A stretch of DNA of 64,000 nt from an uncultured Prevotellaceae bacterium (GTDB taxonomy: Bacteria > Bacteroidota > Bacteroidia > Bacteroidales > Bacteroidaceae): contig OMWH01000012.1 in the NCBI GenBank assembly GCA_900314755.1, positions 1 to 64,000 of the forward strand, in the 5' to 3' direction. This document shows, piece after piece, positions 24,153 through 53,491 of the stretch. The notes beneath the pieces are model-generated. The model searched no databases. It was not told the origin of the DNA and saw only the letters and a program-made list of their open reading frames with translations. Positions within the stretch are counted from its first letter, which is position 1. Each line of letters opens with the position of its first letter. A program made the translations under genes and the position numbers.

Positions 24153-24350
24153 ATAAAATTAAACAAACATAAATCGAGAAATATCTGCAAATCTATCAGT
24201 GATAGGGTTTAACGCACTGATAGACAGTTGATTGGATCTCTGGCAGATAGGCTGACAGATTGATAGATTCCAATGGAAACATCCCTTCTCACCCTTGATA
24301 CCCTTGACACTAATAACGACAATCTTTGTAAAGGATGCCTCCCGTCACTG

Positions 24351-24438
24351 TAATTCAAATTGAATTGCAAAGTAAATCAAATTGAATTACTGAGTAAATC
24401 AAATTGAATTGCAAAGTAATTTAAATTGAATTACATTG
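24351..24438. repeat. Four tandem 22-bp AT-rich units with an AATTCAA/TTGAATT palindrome
   Basis: Four head-to-tail 22-base units, typified by TAAATCAAATTGAATTGCAA plus AG. The first unit has the perfect palindrome AATTCAA-a-TTGAATT. The other three keep the TTGAATT half with one or two changes in the left half. A 22-bp period is about two helical turns, so bound proteins would line up on one face. Confidence 0.85.
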
Positions 24439-24504
24439 TAAGCCATGCTGGATTGCAATTAAGCATCATATTGACTTCATCTATGGCGCCTATAGCTTCC
24501 CTTT

Positions 24505-24608
24505 GAAGCCCATACCTTCGACCTACGGAGGCGGCACCTCCGACCCGAGGAACCCGTACCTTCGACCCACGGAGGCGGCACCTCCGACCTAAGGAGCCTA
24601 GGGCTTCG
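24505..24608. repeat. GC-rich intergenic element A, 22-bp units bounded by GAAGCCC/GGGCTTC
   Basis: It starts GAAGCCC (24505) and ends GGGCTTCG (24608), an inverted pair. Inside are units of 22 bases. Units 1 and 3 are nearly identical (TTCGACCCACGGAGGCGGCA plus CC); unit 2 and the tail are degenerate. Each good unit can fold through GGAGG/CCTCC. A related copy occurs at 51931-52018. Confidence 0.8.
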
Positions 24609-41661: not shown

Positions 41662-41700
41662 AAAAAAAAGAATGATTGTCTCACGACAATCAATCTTTCA
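41662..41700. terminator. Bidirectional hairpin between ispE and the DUF3256 gene
   Basis: Stem GATTGTC/GACAATC (41674-41680 and 41685-41691), loop TCAC, flanked by AAAGA on the left and TCTTT on the right, with an A run of 8 before it. It can end ispE on the plus strand and the ten-gene operon on the minus strand, where the A run becomes a T run. Confidence 0.75.
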
Positions 41701-41813
41701 TTAACCTTAATAATCTAATACCATGAAAAACACACCACAAAAATACGAATAATTCTCGCTCCATGCAAGAAATGTAGCAAAGAATGCTACGGAATTTAAC
41801 GTATTTTAAACAC

Positions 41814-48391: not shown

Positions 48392-51300
48392 TTAAGCTTT
48401 AGTTATTTGTATTTTCAGTTTAAAGTCATCAAACTCGACTTCCACACCCTCATTGGGCGCGATGGTGATGTCATCGGCAAGAACCTGAGTCTTGATATAC
48501 TCGCCATAGCCAGCCACCGCCTTCTGCACCTCGTCGTTCGGTGCCAGGGCGATATGGATGCGGTCGGTGATCTCCAAGCCACTGTCCTTACGGATATTCT
48601 GGACACGGTTGATGATCTCACGTGCCATACCCTCCTGTCTCAGCTCCTCGGTGAGTTCCACCTCCAGGGCAACGGTGAGACTACCCTCGTTAGAGACGAG
48701 CCATCCGGGGATGTCCTCGCTGATGATCTCCACGTCCTCGGCGAGGATCTCTACAGAATCTGTAGTATCTATAGTACCTATCGTGAGCTTGCCGTTAGCC
48801 TCCAGCTCAGCGATCTGCTCCTGGCTCAGTGCGTCGACGGCGGCGGCAACGCTCTTCATCAGCTTGCCGAACTTCTTACCCATCGTGCGGAAGTTACACT
48901 TCACCTTCTTCACCAGGACACCAGCGCCCTCCACGAATCTCAGTTCCTTGACGTTCACCTCATTCATGATCAGGTCTTTCACCGCCTCTATATGGCGTTT
49001 CTGCTCGTCGGTGGCAGGTATCATGATAGCCTGCAGCGGCTGGCGCACCTTGATATTCACCTTACGGCGCAGGGCAAGTACCATGGAGGTGATCTTCTGT
49101 GCCATCTCCATGCGCGCCTCCAGGTCCTTGTCTATCAACGACTCGTCAGCGACGGGGAAGCTGTCCAGATGGACACTGTCCTTCTCACCGCCTAAGTCAC
49201 GGTAGAGCTGGTCAGCATAGAAAGGAGCGAAGGGTGCCAGCAGTTTCGAGATGGTCAGCAGGCAGGTGTAGAGGGTGTCGTAAGCAGAGCGCTTGTCGTC
49301 ACTCATCTCCTTACCCCAGAAACGCTTACGGTTCAGGCGCACATACCAGTTGCTCAGGTCGTCATTGACAAAGGTGTCAATCAGTCTGCCCGCACGGGTC
49401 GGGTCATAATTCTCCAACTCTTCGGTGACCTTCTTGACCAGCGTGTTCAGTGAGGACAGGATCCAGCGGTCAATCTCCGGGCGTGCCTGCTGGGACAGGG
49501 TCGCAGCAGACGGAACGAAGCCGTCCACATTGGCATAGAGTGCGAAGAAGGAATAAGTGTTATACAGTGTTCCGAAGAACTTACGGCGTATCTCGTCCAC
49601 GCCCTCCGGGTCAAACTTCAGGTTGTCCCAGGGCTCTGAGTTCGTCATCATATAGAGACGTACTGCGTCGGAACCGAATTTCTCTATCATCTCAAACGGA
49701 TTCACCACATTACCGACATGCTTGGACATCTTGTTACCCTTGGCATCCAGCACCAGTCCGCTGGAGATCACGTTCTTGAAGGCGACAGAGTCGAAGATCA
49801 TCGTGGCGATGGCATGCAAGGTAAAGAACCATCCACGGGTCTGGTCGACACCCTCGTTGATGAAGTCGGCGGGGAACGCCTTGTTCTGGTCTATCGCCTC
49901 ACGGTTCTCGAAAGGATAGTGAATCTGGGCGTATGGCATCGAACCGGAGTCGAACCACACGTCAATGAGGTCGCTCTCACGCTTCATCCTCTTTCCTGTC
50001 GGAGAGACGAGGAAGATATAGTCCACATACGGGCGGTGGAGGTCTATCTTATCATAGTTCTCCTGTGACATGTCACCAGGCACAAAACCTTTGTCCTTCA
50101 AGGGGTTGGACGGCATCACGCCAGCCTTCACCGCCTTCTCTATCTCGTCATAGAGCTCCTCGATGCTGCCGATGCAGATCTCCTCACCCTCCTCAGAGCG
50201 CCAGATAGGCAGTGGTGTTCCCCAGAAACGGCTGCGGCTGAGGTTCCAGTCATTCAGGTTATCCAGCCAGTTGCCGAAGCGTCCCGTACCTGTTGACTCC
50301 GGCTGCCAGTTGATGGTCTTGTTCAGCTCGCTCATGCGCTCCTTCTTTGCCGTGGACTTGATAAACCAGGAGTCCAGCGGATAGTAGAGCACCGGTTTGT
50401 CGGTACGCCAGCAGTGCGGATAGTTATGCACGTGTTTCTCTATCTTAAAGACCTTGTTCTGAGCTTTCAGGTCCATACAGATGGAGATATCGAGTGTCTC
50501 GTCCTTGTCGGTCAGTGTCTCGTCATAGGCGTTCTTCACGTAACGTCCTGCGAACTTGTTCCACTCATCGACGTTGACATAGTTCTTCACGAAGTCAGGG
50601 TCGAGGTCGTCGGTCACGAAATATTTACCCTGCAGGTCCACCACGGGACGCTCGGCACCCTTCTTGTCAATCAGTACGATCGGACAGATGCCCGCCTTCT
50701 TTGCCACGAAGGCATCGTCAGCACCGAAGTTAGGAGCGATATGCACGATACCGGCACCGTCCTCCGTCGTCACGTAGTCACCGGGGATGACACGGAAGGC
50801 GTCACCCATCGGCTTGATGGCAGGCATCAGCTGCTCATACTCCATCCCGACGAGGTCCGTACCCTTATAGCGTGCCACGATACGGTAGGGAATCAGTTTC
50901 TCACCCTTCTTATACTCAGGCATCTCACCGCCGTCGGTGATATGTCCCTCTGCCGGCAGGTAGGCGTTCAGGCGAGCCTCGGCGAGTACCAGTGTCACCT
51001 TGTCGGCGGTATAGGGGTTATAGGTCTCCACGGCAACATAGTCGATCTTCGGTCCCACGCAGAGTGCGGAGTTTGCCGCCAGTGTCCATGGCGTGGTCGT
51101 CCATGCGAGGAAATAGGGAGTGCCCCATCCTGTCATCTCCGGCTTGGGGTTCTTCATCTTGAACATCGCCGTACAGGTGGTGTCCTTCACGTCACGGTAG
51201 CAGCCGGGCTGGTTCAGCTCATGGGACGACAGTCCGGTACCTGCGGCAGGGGAATAGGGCTGAATGGTATAGCCCTTATAGAGCAGTCCTTTCTGGTAGA

Positions 51301-51817
51301 ACTGCTTCAGCAGCCACCAGAGGGTCTCGATATACTTGTTGTCATAGGTGATATAGGGATGGTCGAGGTCTACGAAATAGCCCATCTTCTCGGTCAGCTC
51401 CCGCCATTCCGCCGTGTACATCATCACGTTCTCGCGGCACTTGAGGTTATAATCCTCTGTCGAGATATAACGCTCCGACTCCTTGTTGTCGATATCTGCC
51501 TTGGTGATACCGAGTTCCTTCTCCACACCCAGCTCTACGGGCAGTCCGTGGGTGTCCCATCCCGCCTTGCGGTGTACCTGATAGCCACGCATGGTCTTAT
51601 AACGGTTGAAGGTATCCTTGATGGAACGTGCCAGCACGTGGTGAATACCGGGGTGTCCGTTTGCCGAGGGAGGTCCCTCGAAGAACACAAACTGAGGACA
51701 ACCCTCACGCTCCTCGATGGAGCGGAGGAACACATTCTTCTCCTTCCACATCTGCAGGATGTCATTGTTCACCTGCGTCAAGTTCAAACCGCCATGCTCG
51801 GCGAATCTCTTTCCCAT
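48392..51817 (-). CDS. ileS: Isoleucyl-tRNA synthetase
   Basis: A 1141-residue class I synthetase charging tRNA-Ile. The HIGH-type motif is GHPGIHHVLARS and the KMSKS-type loop is KGNKMSKHVGN. The CP1 editing domain (TTTPWTLAANSALCVGP) is present, and a long C-terminal anticodon-binding region lacks the zinc-finger cysteines of E. coli-type IleS. The length and architecture match the eukaryote-like (type 2) IleS, a class known for mupirocin insensitivity; this is an inference from architecture only. It is the first gene of the ten-gene minus-strand operon, with its own -7 box. Confidence 0.95.
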   Translation of the reverse strand: MGKRFAEHGGLNLTQVNNDILQMWKEKNVFLRSIEEREGCPQFVFFEGPPSANGHPGIHHVLARSIKDTFNRYKTMRGYQVHRKAGWDTHGLPVELGVEKELGITKADIDNKESERYISTEDYNLKCRENVMMYTAEWRELTEKMGYFVDLDHPYITYDNKYIETLWWLLKQFYQKGLLYKGYTIQPYSPAAGTGLSSHELNQPGCYRDVKDTTCTAMFKMKNPKPEMTGWGTPYFLAWTTTPWTLAANSALCVGPKIDYVAVETYNPYTADKVTLVLAEARLNAYLPAEGHITDGGEMPEYKKGEKLIPYRIVARYKGTDLVGMEYEQLMPAIKPMGDAFRVIPGDYVTTEDGAGIVHIAPNFGADDAFVAKKAGICPIVLIDKKGAERPVVDLQGKYFVTDDLDPDFVKNYVNVDEWNKFAGRYVKNAYDETLTDKDETLDISICMDLKAQNKVFKIEKHVHNYPHCWRTDKPVLYYPLDSWFIKSTAKKERMSELNKTINWQPESTGTGRFGNWLDNLNDWNLSRSRFWGTPLPIWRSEEGEEICIGSIEELYDEIEKAVKAGVMPSNPLKDKGFVPGDMSQENYDKIDLHRPYVDYIFLVSPTGKRMKRESDLIDVWFDSGSMPYAQIHYPFENREAIDQNKAFPADFINEGVDQTRGWFFTLHAIATMIFDSVAFKNVISSGLVLDAKGNKMSKHVGNVVNPFEMIEKFGSDAVRLYMMTNSEPWDNLKFDPEGVDEIRRKFFGTLYNTYSFFALYANVDGFVPSAATLSQQARPEIDRWILSSLNTLVKKVTEELENYDPTRAGRLIDTFVNDDLSNWYVRLNRKRFWGKEMSDDKRSAYDTLYTCLLTISKLLAPFAPFYADQLYRDLGGEKDSVHLDSFPVADESLIDKDLEARMEMAQKITSMVLALRRKVNIKVRQPLQAIMIPATDEQKRHIEAVKDLIMNEVNVKELRFVEGAGVLVKKVKCNFRTMGKKFGKLMKSVAAAVDALSQEQIAELEANGKLTIGTIDTTDSVEILAEDVEIISEDIPGWLVSNEGSLTVALEVELTEELRQEGMAREIINRVQNIRKDSGLEITDRIHIALAPNDEVQKAVAGYGEYIKTQVLADDITIAPNEGVEVEFDDFKLKIQITKA

Positions 51818-51869
51818 AAATTTTATCTGTTTTTTCTTTACTATTTTCTTTACTTTTTATTTTTAATGC

Positions 51870-51878
51870 GCAAAGTTA
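51870..51878 (-). promoter_or_regulatory. -7 promoter box of the ileS operon
   Basis: The minus strand reads TAACTTTGC, with TTG 20 bases upstream (in TTTGGG), a good -33/-7 spacing. The leader is about 45 nt before the ATG at 51817. Confidence 0.6.
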
Positions 51879-51930
51879 CGAAAAAAAATTGAATTACCCA
51901 AATCTTTTGTTATATTAAATGTGAAAAATA

Positions 51931-52018
51931 CGAAGCCCGGGGCTTCGACCCACGGAGGCGGCACCTTCGACCCACGGAGGCGGCACCTTCGGGGGCAGGA
52001 GCCCAGGGCTTCGTGGAA
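51931..52018. repeat. GC-rich intergenic element B, related to 24505-24608
   Basis: It begins CGAAGCCC and ends AGGGCTTCGTGG. Two identical adjacent 22-base units (TTCGACCCACGGAGGCGGCA plus CC) start at 51944 and 51966, then a degenerate third. The same boundary motif and unit occur at 24505-24608 in the same orientation, including a similar AAGGAG...GGCG flank. Confidence 0.82.
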
Positions 52019-52046
52019 AGGAGGGGGCGGCTGCGTCATTGTCAAG

Positions 52047-52175
52047 GTGACGGGTGACAGATGAAAAACTAAACCTCTCACGTACGGGCGCGCAGGAACT
52101 CGGAAAATTTGCGATTTGGGAAGTTCCTGCGCGCGTACACGTGAAAGGTTTAAAAAACCATCTGTCACCCGACAC
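52047..52175. repeat. 129-bp long imperfect inverted repeat
   Basis: Two 54-base arms (52047-52100 and 52122-52175) are reverse complements at 42 of 54 positions by my count, around a 21-base loop. Strong blocks are GGGTGACAGATG, TAAACCT, TCACGT and CGCGCAGGAACT. GTCAAG occurs on both flanks (52041-52046 and 52180-52185), like a short target duplication. Confidence 0.85.
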
Positions 52176-52198
52176 TACCGTCAAGAATACAGCATTTA

Positions 52199-53491
52199 CT
52201 AATTATTTATAATTAGTACTAACCGTAACACTTCCGTCGTATCAGACGACACTCGACAACGGTTGTCGGTACGGATGCCCACCAACCAGACCACGTTACC
52301 TTCTCCGTCGACGACCACCAACTGACGGCGTTTCTCGAAAACGGTCATCTTACGGTCGGTCATCAGGTCGCTCAGCAGTTTACGACCCTCCATCCCGAAG
52401 GGGATCATCCAGTCACCTTCCTCTACCCGTCTGACGGTCAGGGGAAAATGCACCCTGGAGGCATCAACGGTTGCCACAGCGGCATCTCTCGATATCCATA
52501 CGGGTTCTCTTTTCACCGAAATTCTCGTCTGGTCGTCGAGTACATAGGTGCCCTCTTCGGGTATCCGCAGATTTTTCATCGGTTTCAACGAGGGTTCCAC
52601 CAACAAATGTCCTCTGTCCACCAGCACGTCATAGCCTTGAGGCGAGGAGAACACCCTACCCGTCTCAGCCGTTAATACCTGTCGCACCTGCGTCCCGTTG
52701 AAACCGTAGTTTTTAAGCCATTCAAAGGTGATATATTCTCTTGAAGCAGTATCTGTTAACTGATTCAAATCCAATTCCTTAACATGCTGATACGGAAGTA
52801 TCACAGCATCCAGGACAGCCTGCGCATCCGAAAGGTTCTCCGCCGTACGCTGTATGTTCTCCGAGACCGCAGGATTCAGTTGCCGCAGGAGCGGAATGAC
52901 CTGCAAACGGACTTTATTACGGAGTACGTCAGTCTCCAGATTGGTATGGTCGGTGACGTATTCCTGTCCCTTTATCCGCAGGTACTCTTCTATCTCTGCC
53001 CTGGAGACTCCCAGCAGCGGGCGCAGGATATTCCCGTTCTTTGGCTGGATACCAGTCAGTCCACGGAGTCCCGTCCCACGGACGAGGTTCAGGATTACCG
53101 TCTCCACCGTATCATCCCGGTGATGCGCCACACAGACACCCGCTGCCCCGATATCCTTCCGGAGCTGCTCGAAATAACGGTACCTGAGTTCACGCGCTGC
53201 CATTTCAACGCTGACCTGATGGGTCTCCGCATAGGTCATCGTATCGAAATGAATGCGATGGAACGGGATGTTTTTCTGCTGACAGAGTTGTTCACAGAAA
53301 CGCTCATCCCTGTCCGACTCCTCCCCGCGAAGATGGAAGTTACAATGGACGGCATGCAGTTGACAGCCCATTTCATCGAGAAGTAAGAGCAAGGCGACAC
53401 TGTCTGCTCCACCACTCAATGCTACAAGATATAAATCGTTGCTATTGAGAAGATTATGCTTTTTAATATAATCTTTTACTTTACTCAACAT
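52199..53491 (-). CDS. tilS: tRNA(Ile)-lysidine synthetase
   Basis: A 430-residue N-type ATP pyrophosphatase that converts C34 of the AUA-reading tRNA-Ile to lysidine. The PP-loop is VALSGGADSVALLLLL, and HCNFHLRGEESDRDE, AHHRDDTVETVILNLVRGTG and RPLLGVSRAEIEEYL follow. The C-terminal domain (about 350-430) has LTVRRVEEGDWMIPFGMEGR and KKRRQLVVV-type residues that bind the tRNA arm. Its start overlaps rlmI by 11 bases. It is the last gene of the RNase D-rlmI-tilS operon. Confidence 0.94.
   Translation of the reverse strand: MLSKVKDYIKKHNLLNSNDLYLVALSGGADSVALLLLLDEMGCQLHAVHCNFHLRGEESDRDERFCEQLCQQKNIPFHRIHFDTMTYAETHQVSVEMAARELRYRYFEQLRKDIGAAGVCVAHHRDDTVETVILNLVRGTGLRGLTGIQPKNGNILRPLLGVSRAEIEEYLRIKGQEYVTDHTNLETDVLRNKVRLQVIPLLRQLNPAVSENIQRTAENLSDAQAVLDAVILPYQHVKELDLNQLTDTASREYITFEWLKNYGFNGTQVRQVLTAETGRVFSSPQGYDVLVDRGHLLVEPSLKPMKNLRIPEEGTYVLDDQTRISVKREPVWISRDAAVATVDASRVHFPLTVRRVEEGDWMIPFGMEGRKLLSDLMTDRKMTVFEKRRQLVVVDGEGNVVWLVGIRTDNRCRVSSDTTEVLRLVLIINN

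Follow-up and report, generated by a model that had tools for sequence, protein, structure and literature searches.

A long palindrome between a tilS-like and an ileS-like gene of an uncultured Prevotellaceae bacterium is one copy of a dispersed, intergenic family of palindromes that has so far been found only in this Prevotella genus. The copies are dispersed across genomes, keep the pairing between their two arms, are more alike in their cores within a genome than between genomes, and are frequently placed behind stop codons. We consider it probable that they form a non-autonomous family resembling miniature inverted-repeat transposable elements (MITEs) and REPINs, whose arms are kept symmetrical at the DNA level. 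Here, we describe the copy in the analysed stretch of 64,000 nt (the window), the family to which it belongs, and the alternative ways in which such a family might be explained.

The palindrome consists of a left arm (52047..52100), with outer units GTGACGG GTGACAGATG followed by a core (..TAAACCTCTCACGTACGGGCGCGCAGGAACT), a centre of 21 nt (52101..52121), and a right arm (52122..52175) that reads AGTTCCTGCGCGCGTACACGTGAAAGGTTTAAAAAACCATCTGTCACCCGACAC. A preliminary description, made from the letters of the window alone, had reported these arms of 54 nt with 42/54 matching positions, and they are indeed 78% complementary. Three inverted pairs of at least 30 nt with at most 150 nt between the arms occur in the window, the palindrome being the longest. 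RNA folding, proposed earlier as a check, resulted in a minimum free energy of -74.8 kcal/mol, whereas shuffled sequences averaged -35.6 (z -10.8; 0/200 shuffles as good), and the other strand folded as DNA behaved likewise (z -11.0; 0/200). These results confirm that the palindrome at the tilS-ileS locus is real and beyond chance.

Whether it is also more than a local structure depends on copies elsewhere. Within its own genome, blastn found one further copy (C42:4999-5105), 79% identical over positions 17-125 of 145, which marks the 3′ end of a VapE-like gene, the frame terminating within the palindrome, and precedes a DUF4248 gene. Against 200 genomes of the genus, blastn matched only three, namely the own genome, G161 and G109. 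Exact patterns were similarly restrictive: TTCACGN{2,8}GCGCGCAGGAA was found only in the own genome and G161 among 398 genus genomes, and because such patterns proved too strict, covariance models were used. The first model (R1) was made from four sites (the own two and those of G161 and G109), each in both strands, and the second (R2) from 117 aligned matches. With E-values that are rough and filters that are strict, R1 (E<=0.01) matched 55/398 genus genomes and R2 (E<=0.001) 106/398, or 39/175 when only good-quality genomes are counted, the own genome being included each time; some genomes carry several copies. The copies sought by BLASTN in the preliminary description thus exist, in the own genome and widely in the genus. 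R1 (E<=0.001) matched 0/197 other genomes of the order, which represent 150 other genera and include only two genomes from the same family, and a blastn search of plasmid and phage collections with the palindrome found nothing. Two pattern searches yielded candidates that we rejected. In viral contigs, TTCACGN{2,8}GCGCGCAGGAA occurred in 45 stretches (one place per stretch, about 65 nt, read by eye), where the second arm was absent, and these were taken as chance; GGGTGACAGATG with one mismatch occurred at 20 places in the own genome, of which, with 300 nt around each inspected by eye, only the two belonging to the window's palindrome lay in such a structure.

To the extent that copies could be compared, they share a recognisable anatomy. 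Stretches were fetched around listed matches (60 plus others), and 86 sites were located at these loci among the R1 matches listed, one locus (L142) being omitted as a duplicate of L208. A copy is about 110-150 bp long and, read by eye from many of these sites, runs inward from iterated units through a T/A-rich step (..TTTTCTTAAACTTT) to CTCGCGTACG.. and a variable tip that often has the form AGGAAC..GTTCCT. The core consensus reads inward as TTTTtAAAanTTTCtCGCGTACG.., with AGGAAC/GTTCCT frequent near the tip, and the consensus of the 117 aligned matches is GATGAnACAgtnnTTTTtAAAanTTTCtCGCGTACGCGCGCAGGAACTntaGTTCcTGCGCGCGTACGCGaGAAAntTTTAAAAAntacTGTnTCATC. The outer arms contain two to three iterated units of 7-10 bp (for example GTAACAGATG, TGACGCAA, TTTGCCACA and GGACAGTA) that are specific to the locus yet are inverted copies of each other. 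Internal repeats (at least 75% self-match) occur in 71/170 arms, compared with 2/170 shuffled arms, and 61 of the 71 have a period of 7, 8 or 9. In genome G055, the three copies that were read have a common core and different outer arms, while a few copies elsewhere (e.g. L137, L144 and L156) lack matching outer arms.

Arm pairing is kept while the sequence changes. Over 28 pairs in the 117 aligned matches, 85.6% of cells are paired compared with 65.5% in shuffles, and two-sided changes number 658 against 265, figures that lean towards structure because the alignment was fitted to it and contains both strands of many sites. When the partner is slid by 1-3 columns, 24-50% of cells are still paired. 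The arms can also be compared directly, without the model, by local scores of the left against the reversed right arm at 85 sites (L205, which lies inside a 309-aa frame and folds weakly, was omitted from the sets of 85 sites). The median score is 17 for a site's own arms, 8 for arms of other sites and 6 for shuffled arms, with the 95th percentile between sites equal to the own-site median (17). The own partner is the single best match at only 17/85 sites, because related sites have similar arms.

The closest genome found, G233, contains an orthologous locus (L158) that matches the window end to end over 5.2 kb, collinear and at 82% identity (tilS 74%, ileS start 89%). The palindrome is present there; its arms are 85% and 70% identical to those of the window, and the changed arms still pair. 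An ACAG unit of the window, for instance, corresponds to GCGG and ACGG in the two G233 arms. We therefore regard the tilS-ileS palindrome as an insertion 3′ of tilS that is common to both genomes. Elsewhere the locus looks different. Among 22 named loci with TilS, the 12 nearest (L106-L117) were examined, ten of which have ileS next to tilS; R2 matched only one of the twelve (L109), leaving 9/10 named relatives with adjacent genes without an R2 match at the locus. Together with the copies elsewhere, this argues against a purely local structure and for the dispersed element that had been suggested. The exception, RUG14585 (L109 5475-5795), has two unlike palindromes just upstream of ileS with a 22-bp-type array between them. 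Another relative (L114 4340-4460) has a different tilS-ileS hairpin with ATGACAGATGACAG-type arms, an A+T-rich centre and a z of -4.8, which R2 does not match; arms may therefore occur without the usual core. Taken together, the relatives imply that the locus either repeatedly receives such elements or often loses them.

A target duplication had been proposed from the hexamer GTCAAG on both sides of the palindrome. The hexamer is present at 52041..52046 and 52180..52185 (both on the forward strand), but its interpretation as a duplication is unsupported, since the G233 ortholog has nothing that corresponds to the left GTCAAG. We interpret the right one as belonging to an additional outer-arm unit (CCGTCAA / TTGACGG), and the hexamer occurs 50 times on both strands of the window, with 36.5 expected. 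No target duplication was seen by eye at a pair of similar copies in genome G034, and an exact empty site in a closely similar sequence was not found. The element shares with MITEs its short, non-coding, multi-copy character and its inverted repeats; the MITE identity suggested earlier falls short of proof, with no transposase ends and no duplication shown.

Beside the palindrome lies repeat B (51930..52014), an array with a period of about 22 bp and dyad units (GAAGCCCGGGGCTTCG / GGAGGCGGCACCTTCG), which is a separate dispersed repeat. The two had been described as directly abutting; 26 nt (52015-52040) actually lie between the inverted pair at 51930-52014 and position 52041. Tandem arrays with a period of 21 or 22 bp occur beside 22/85 palindrome sites, corresponding to 22/167 flank segments compared with 6/1221 controls, and a 12-bp array occurs at two further sites. 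None of the 22 array-bearing sites has an array on both sides, and the unit sequences vary between Prevotella genomes. Repeat B is one such array. It also exists without the palindrome, since the stretch 51925-52040 has 52 matches in the own genome (itself included, some overlapping), whereas R1 and R2 each find two palindromes there. Elsewhere in the window, at 24346-24438 and 24505-24608, a second, A+T-rich inverted repeat (46-nt arms, 76%) lies 66 bp from another repeat-B match, so that a palindrome again stands beside a repeat-B-type array at 24346-24608.

The family has a preference for the 3′ ends of genes. Counting naive longest frames of at least 140 aa (60-aa frames were too noisy and were replaced), 25/78 gene ends that face a site with their 3′ end lie within 30 nt of it, compared with 1/62 that face it with their 5′ end. 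Much of this preference reflects a single recurrent position, since at 27/86 sites the fetched stretch contains a VapE match, never more than about 105 nt away, and 12 of these 27 also have a DUF4248 match. At the remaining 59/86 sites, the fetched stretch, which is short in some cases, contains no VapE match. Palindromes recur in the interval that follows VapE, often ahead of DUF4248, as seen at L209 4994-5110 and at other VapE loci.

Several observations indicate that the palindrome likely moves as a unit. Cores compared within a genome have a median identity of 0.79 (55 pairs, some of which sit in larger shared duplications), against 0.56 for 3515 pairs from different genomes. Genome G034 contains two copies that are 95% similar over 111 bp and whose immediate flanks are unlike, although a 22-bp-type array lies at a greater distance on one and the same side of both; this is the only recent-looking copy with unlike immediate flanks. 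Other alike pairs within one genome (in G388, G109, G314 and G041) share their flanks and may therefore have been carried in larger duplications. Homogenisation within a genome is not supported for the tilS and VapE copies of the own genome, because the tilS copy is equally close (0.80) to the own VapE copy and to that of G233, its own ortholog scoring 0.75. A RAYT-driven origin, as in REPINs, was considered and lowered. No Y1/RAYT gene (PF01797) was matched in the own genome (94% complete), and although PF01797 was found in 8/16 element-bearing genomes searched, it was matched neither in the own genome nor in 7/15 others (G233, G161, G217 and four more).

The position of the palindrome between two genes had also led to the suggestion that it attenuates transcription. 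The tilS-like gene (52199..53491; reverse strand; Pfam PP-loop family) ends 23 nt from the palindrome arm, and the ileS-like gene (48392..51817; reverse strand; Pfam class I tRNA synthetase, I/L/M/V) follows. Between the palindrome and ileS, positions 51902-51871 of the reverse strand read TTTG-N20-TAACTTTG, which we take to be a Bacteroidetes-type promoter motif and likely the ileS promoter; it is kept in G233. With the putative promoter on the ileS side of it, the palindrome is unlikely to attenuate ileS. A T-box or leader attenuator also finds no support in an Rfam search, which gave no match at the palindrome at the gathering score (elsewhere in the window, 41662-41733 on the reverse strand matches the Bacteroidetes FopS small RNA). 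A terminator scan of 51800-52260, covering loops of 3-8 nt only, found no site at the palindrome, which within that scan lacks the G+C stem and U-tract of an intrinsic terminator. The single site found lies in repeat B (51947-51931, reverse strand), where the unit CGAAGCCCCGGGCTTCG is followed by TATTTTT; it looks like an intrinsic terminator behind tilS, with 0.9 such sites expected by chance.

A hairpin RNA at the tilS 3′ end is possible, and a more general alternative is that the palindromes act as transcribed hairpins at mRNA ends, either protecting the message or serving as RNase III substrates (which has been proposed for NEMIS, while ERIC has been reported to affect mRNA stability), with pairing kept by selection on RNA. 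Such a role would suit the short distance to the tilS stop codon and the excess of 3′-facing gene ends at sites across the family. It would also suit the strand lean at the tilS locus, where G.U mismatches in the sense strand exceed A.C mismatches 5:1 in the window and 10:1 in G233 (together 15 vs 2), and where the sense strand folds better than the antisense strand (-89.3 vs -82.7 in the window; -85.4 vs -61.8 in G233). The VapE copies of G000, G233 and G166 likewise fold better in the sense strand, by 1.6 to 4.7 kcal/mol, although the lean in these five related sequences was noticed after the fact. Larger sets show no such bias. Sense-strand mismatches number 114 G.U vs 114 A.C at 46 sites, and 67 vs 57 at 27 sites (25 VapE-linked and the two tilS copies; the VapE-linked L161 and L199 lie outside this set), and the sense strand is the more stable in 35/60 (p 0.23) and 15/27 (p 0.90). 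These counts give no family-wide sign of a selected transcript, and the mismatch symmetry (114 vs 114) fits upkeep at the DNA level. The lack of a terminator-like site at the palindrome and of an R2 match at the locus in most of the named relatives weighs further against selection on RNA, which we lowered to an unlikely explanation despite the lean at tilS.

Two other explanations were considered. The palindromes could be protein-binding sites or replication/partition sites, in which the arm units and the 21-22-bp dyad arrays represent arrays of binding sites that travel or are copied together with mobile islands, for example the VapE-DUF4248-HU cassette. The short-period repeats inside the arms, the enrichment of neighbouring arrays over controls and the recurrent position behind VapE speak for such sites. 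Nevertheless, the unit sequence varies by locus within one genome, making a single binding protein hardly plausible, and VapE was not matched near most sites, as far as the fetched stretches extend; we regard this explanation as improbable. Still less probable, in our view, are vertical relics, that is, old, immobile palindromes that persist while quasipalindrome correction restores their symmetry. The tilS-ileS ortholog in G233 and VapE copies at the same place in several species agree with inheritance of this kind, but it sits poorly with the patchy presence across the genus, with copies in unrelated places that have genome-typical cores, with the recent-looking G034 copy and with the neighbouring pair of unlike palindromes that RUG14585 carries ahead of ileS.

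Among known systems, the family is most like REPINs and MITEs in kind and inside-out in build. REPINs are short intergenic palindromes with RAYT transposases that spread within genomes and in which compensatory changes are common (PMC3116915, in the part available). The Prevotella copies share with them the intergenic position, the spread within genomes, the lack of coding capacity and two inverted halves that form one hairpin with compensatory changes. However, REPINs have highly conserved ends and a varying middle, whereas here the core is the more conserved and the outer arms vary (PMC3116915). The GTAG and CGTC REPs are likewise palindromic repeats, but of 20-40 bp instead of about 110-150 bp; CGTC REPs are reported from five phyla including Bacteroidetes and, according to the accessible text, seem to lack a dedicated transposase (PMC3733652). 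BrickBuilt, a MITE of Porphyromonas gingivalis, has a leader and tail with IS5-type terminal repeats (GAGACCTTTGCA) around a 23-nt minisatellite (PMC4596501, in part). It is, like the Prevotella combination of palindrome and 21-22-bp array, an intergenic, mobile-like element of the Bacteroidales with a minisatellite, and it is species-restricted; in Prevotella, the hairpin forms a module of its own, and the array was seen to flank it on a single side. ERIC, NEMIS/Correia and RPE are also repeats that measure about 100-200 bp, lack coding capacity and form long stem loops; most of them, as far as the source could be consulted, have fixed terminal repeats with TA ends and target duplications, neither of which is seen here (PMC2229807). 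Quasipalindrome correction by template switching during replication, as described in the available parts of PMC8794818 and PMC8604942, accounts for inverted-repeat arms that become or stay identical; it is a mutation process, not an element (PMC8794818), and was tested here through mismatch strand symmetry only. In a literature search mostly outside subscription journals, we recognised no description of this palindrome family, nor do the accessible portions of PMC5771137 and PMC2267715 offer one.

Returning to the preferred reading of a mobile-like family with arms maintained at the DNA level, the palindrome would have spread as a unit, through a putative trans-acting enzyme whose substrate is the hairpin or the iterated ends. 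Arm complementarity would be kept by DNA-level repair, through template switching between the arms during replication; the two arms of a copy, although specific to their locus, would thereby remain closely matching inverted copies. The tilS-ileS copy would then have no necessary role in ileS expression. A bolder version, which we put forward only tentatively and think doubtful, is a new class of mobile palindrome without fixed ends: its core would spread while the outer arms are built or rebuilt at each locus as inverted, short iterated units, the element thereby regenerating its own hairpin at the DNA level, together with the 21-22-bp dyad arrays.

If the preferred reading is true, Prevotella harbors a repeat family built in the opposite way to REPINs and MITEs, with a more constant middle and locus-specific, self-complementary ends. 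Orthologous copies with changed arms would provide material for studying how inverted repeats keep their symmetry, by template switching or by selection, and the strong covariation in such a family would call for caution before covariation is taken as proof of a functional RNA. The family also raises the question of what moves palindromes in genomes without a detected RAYT gene.
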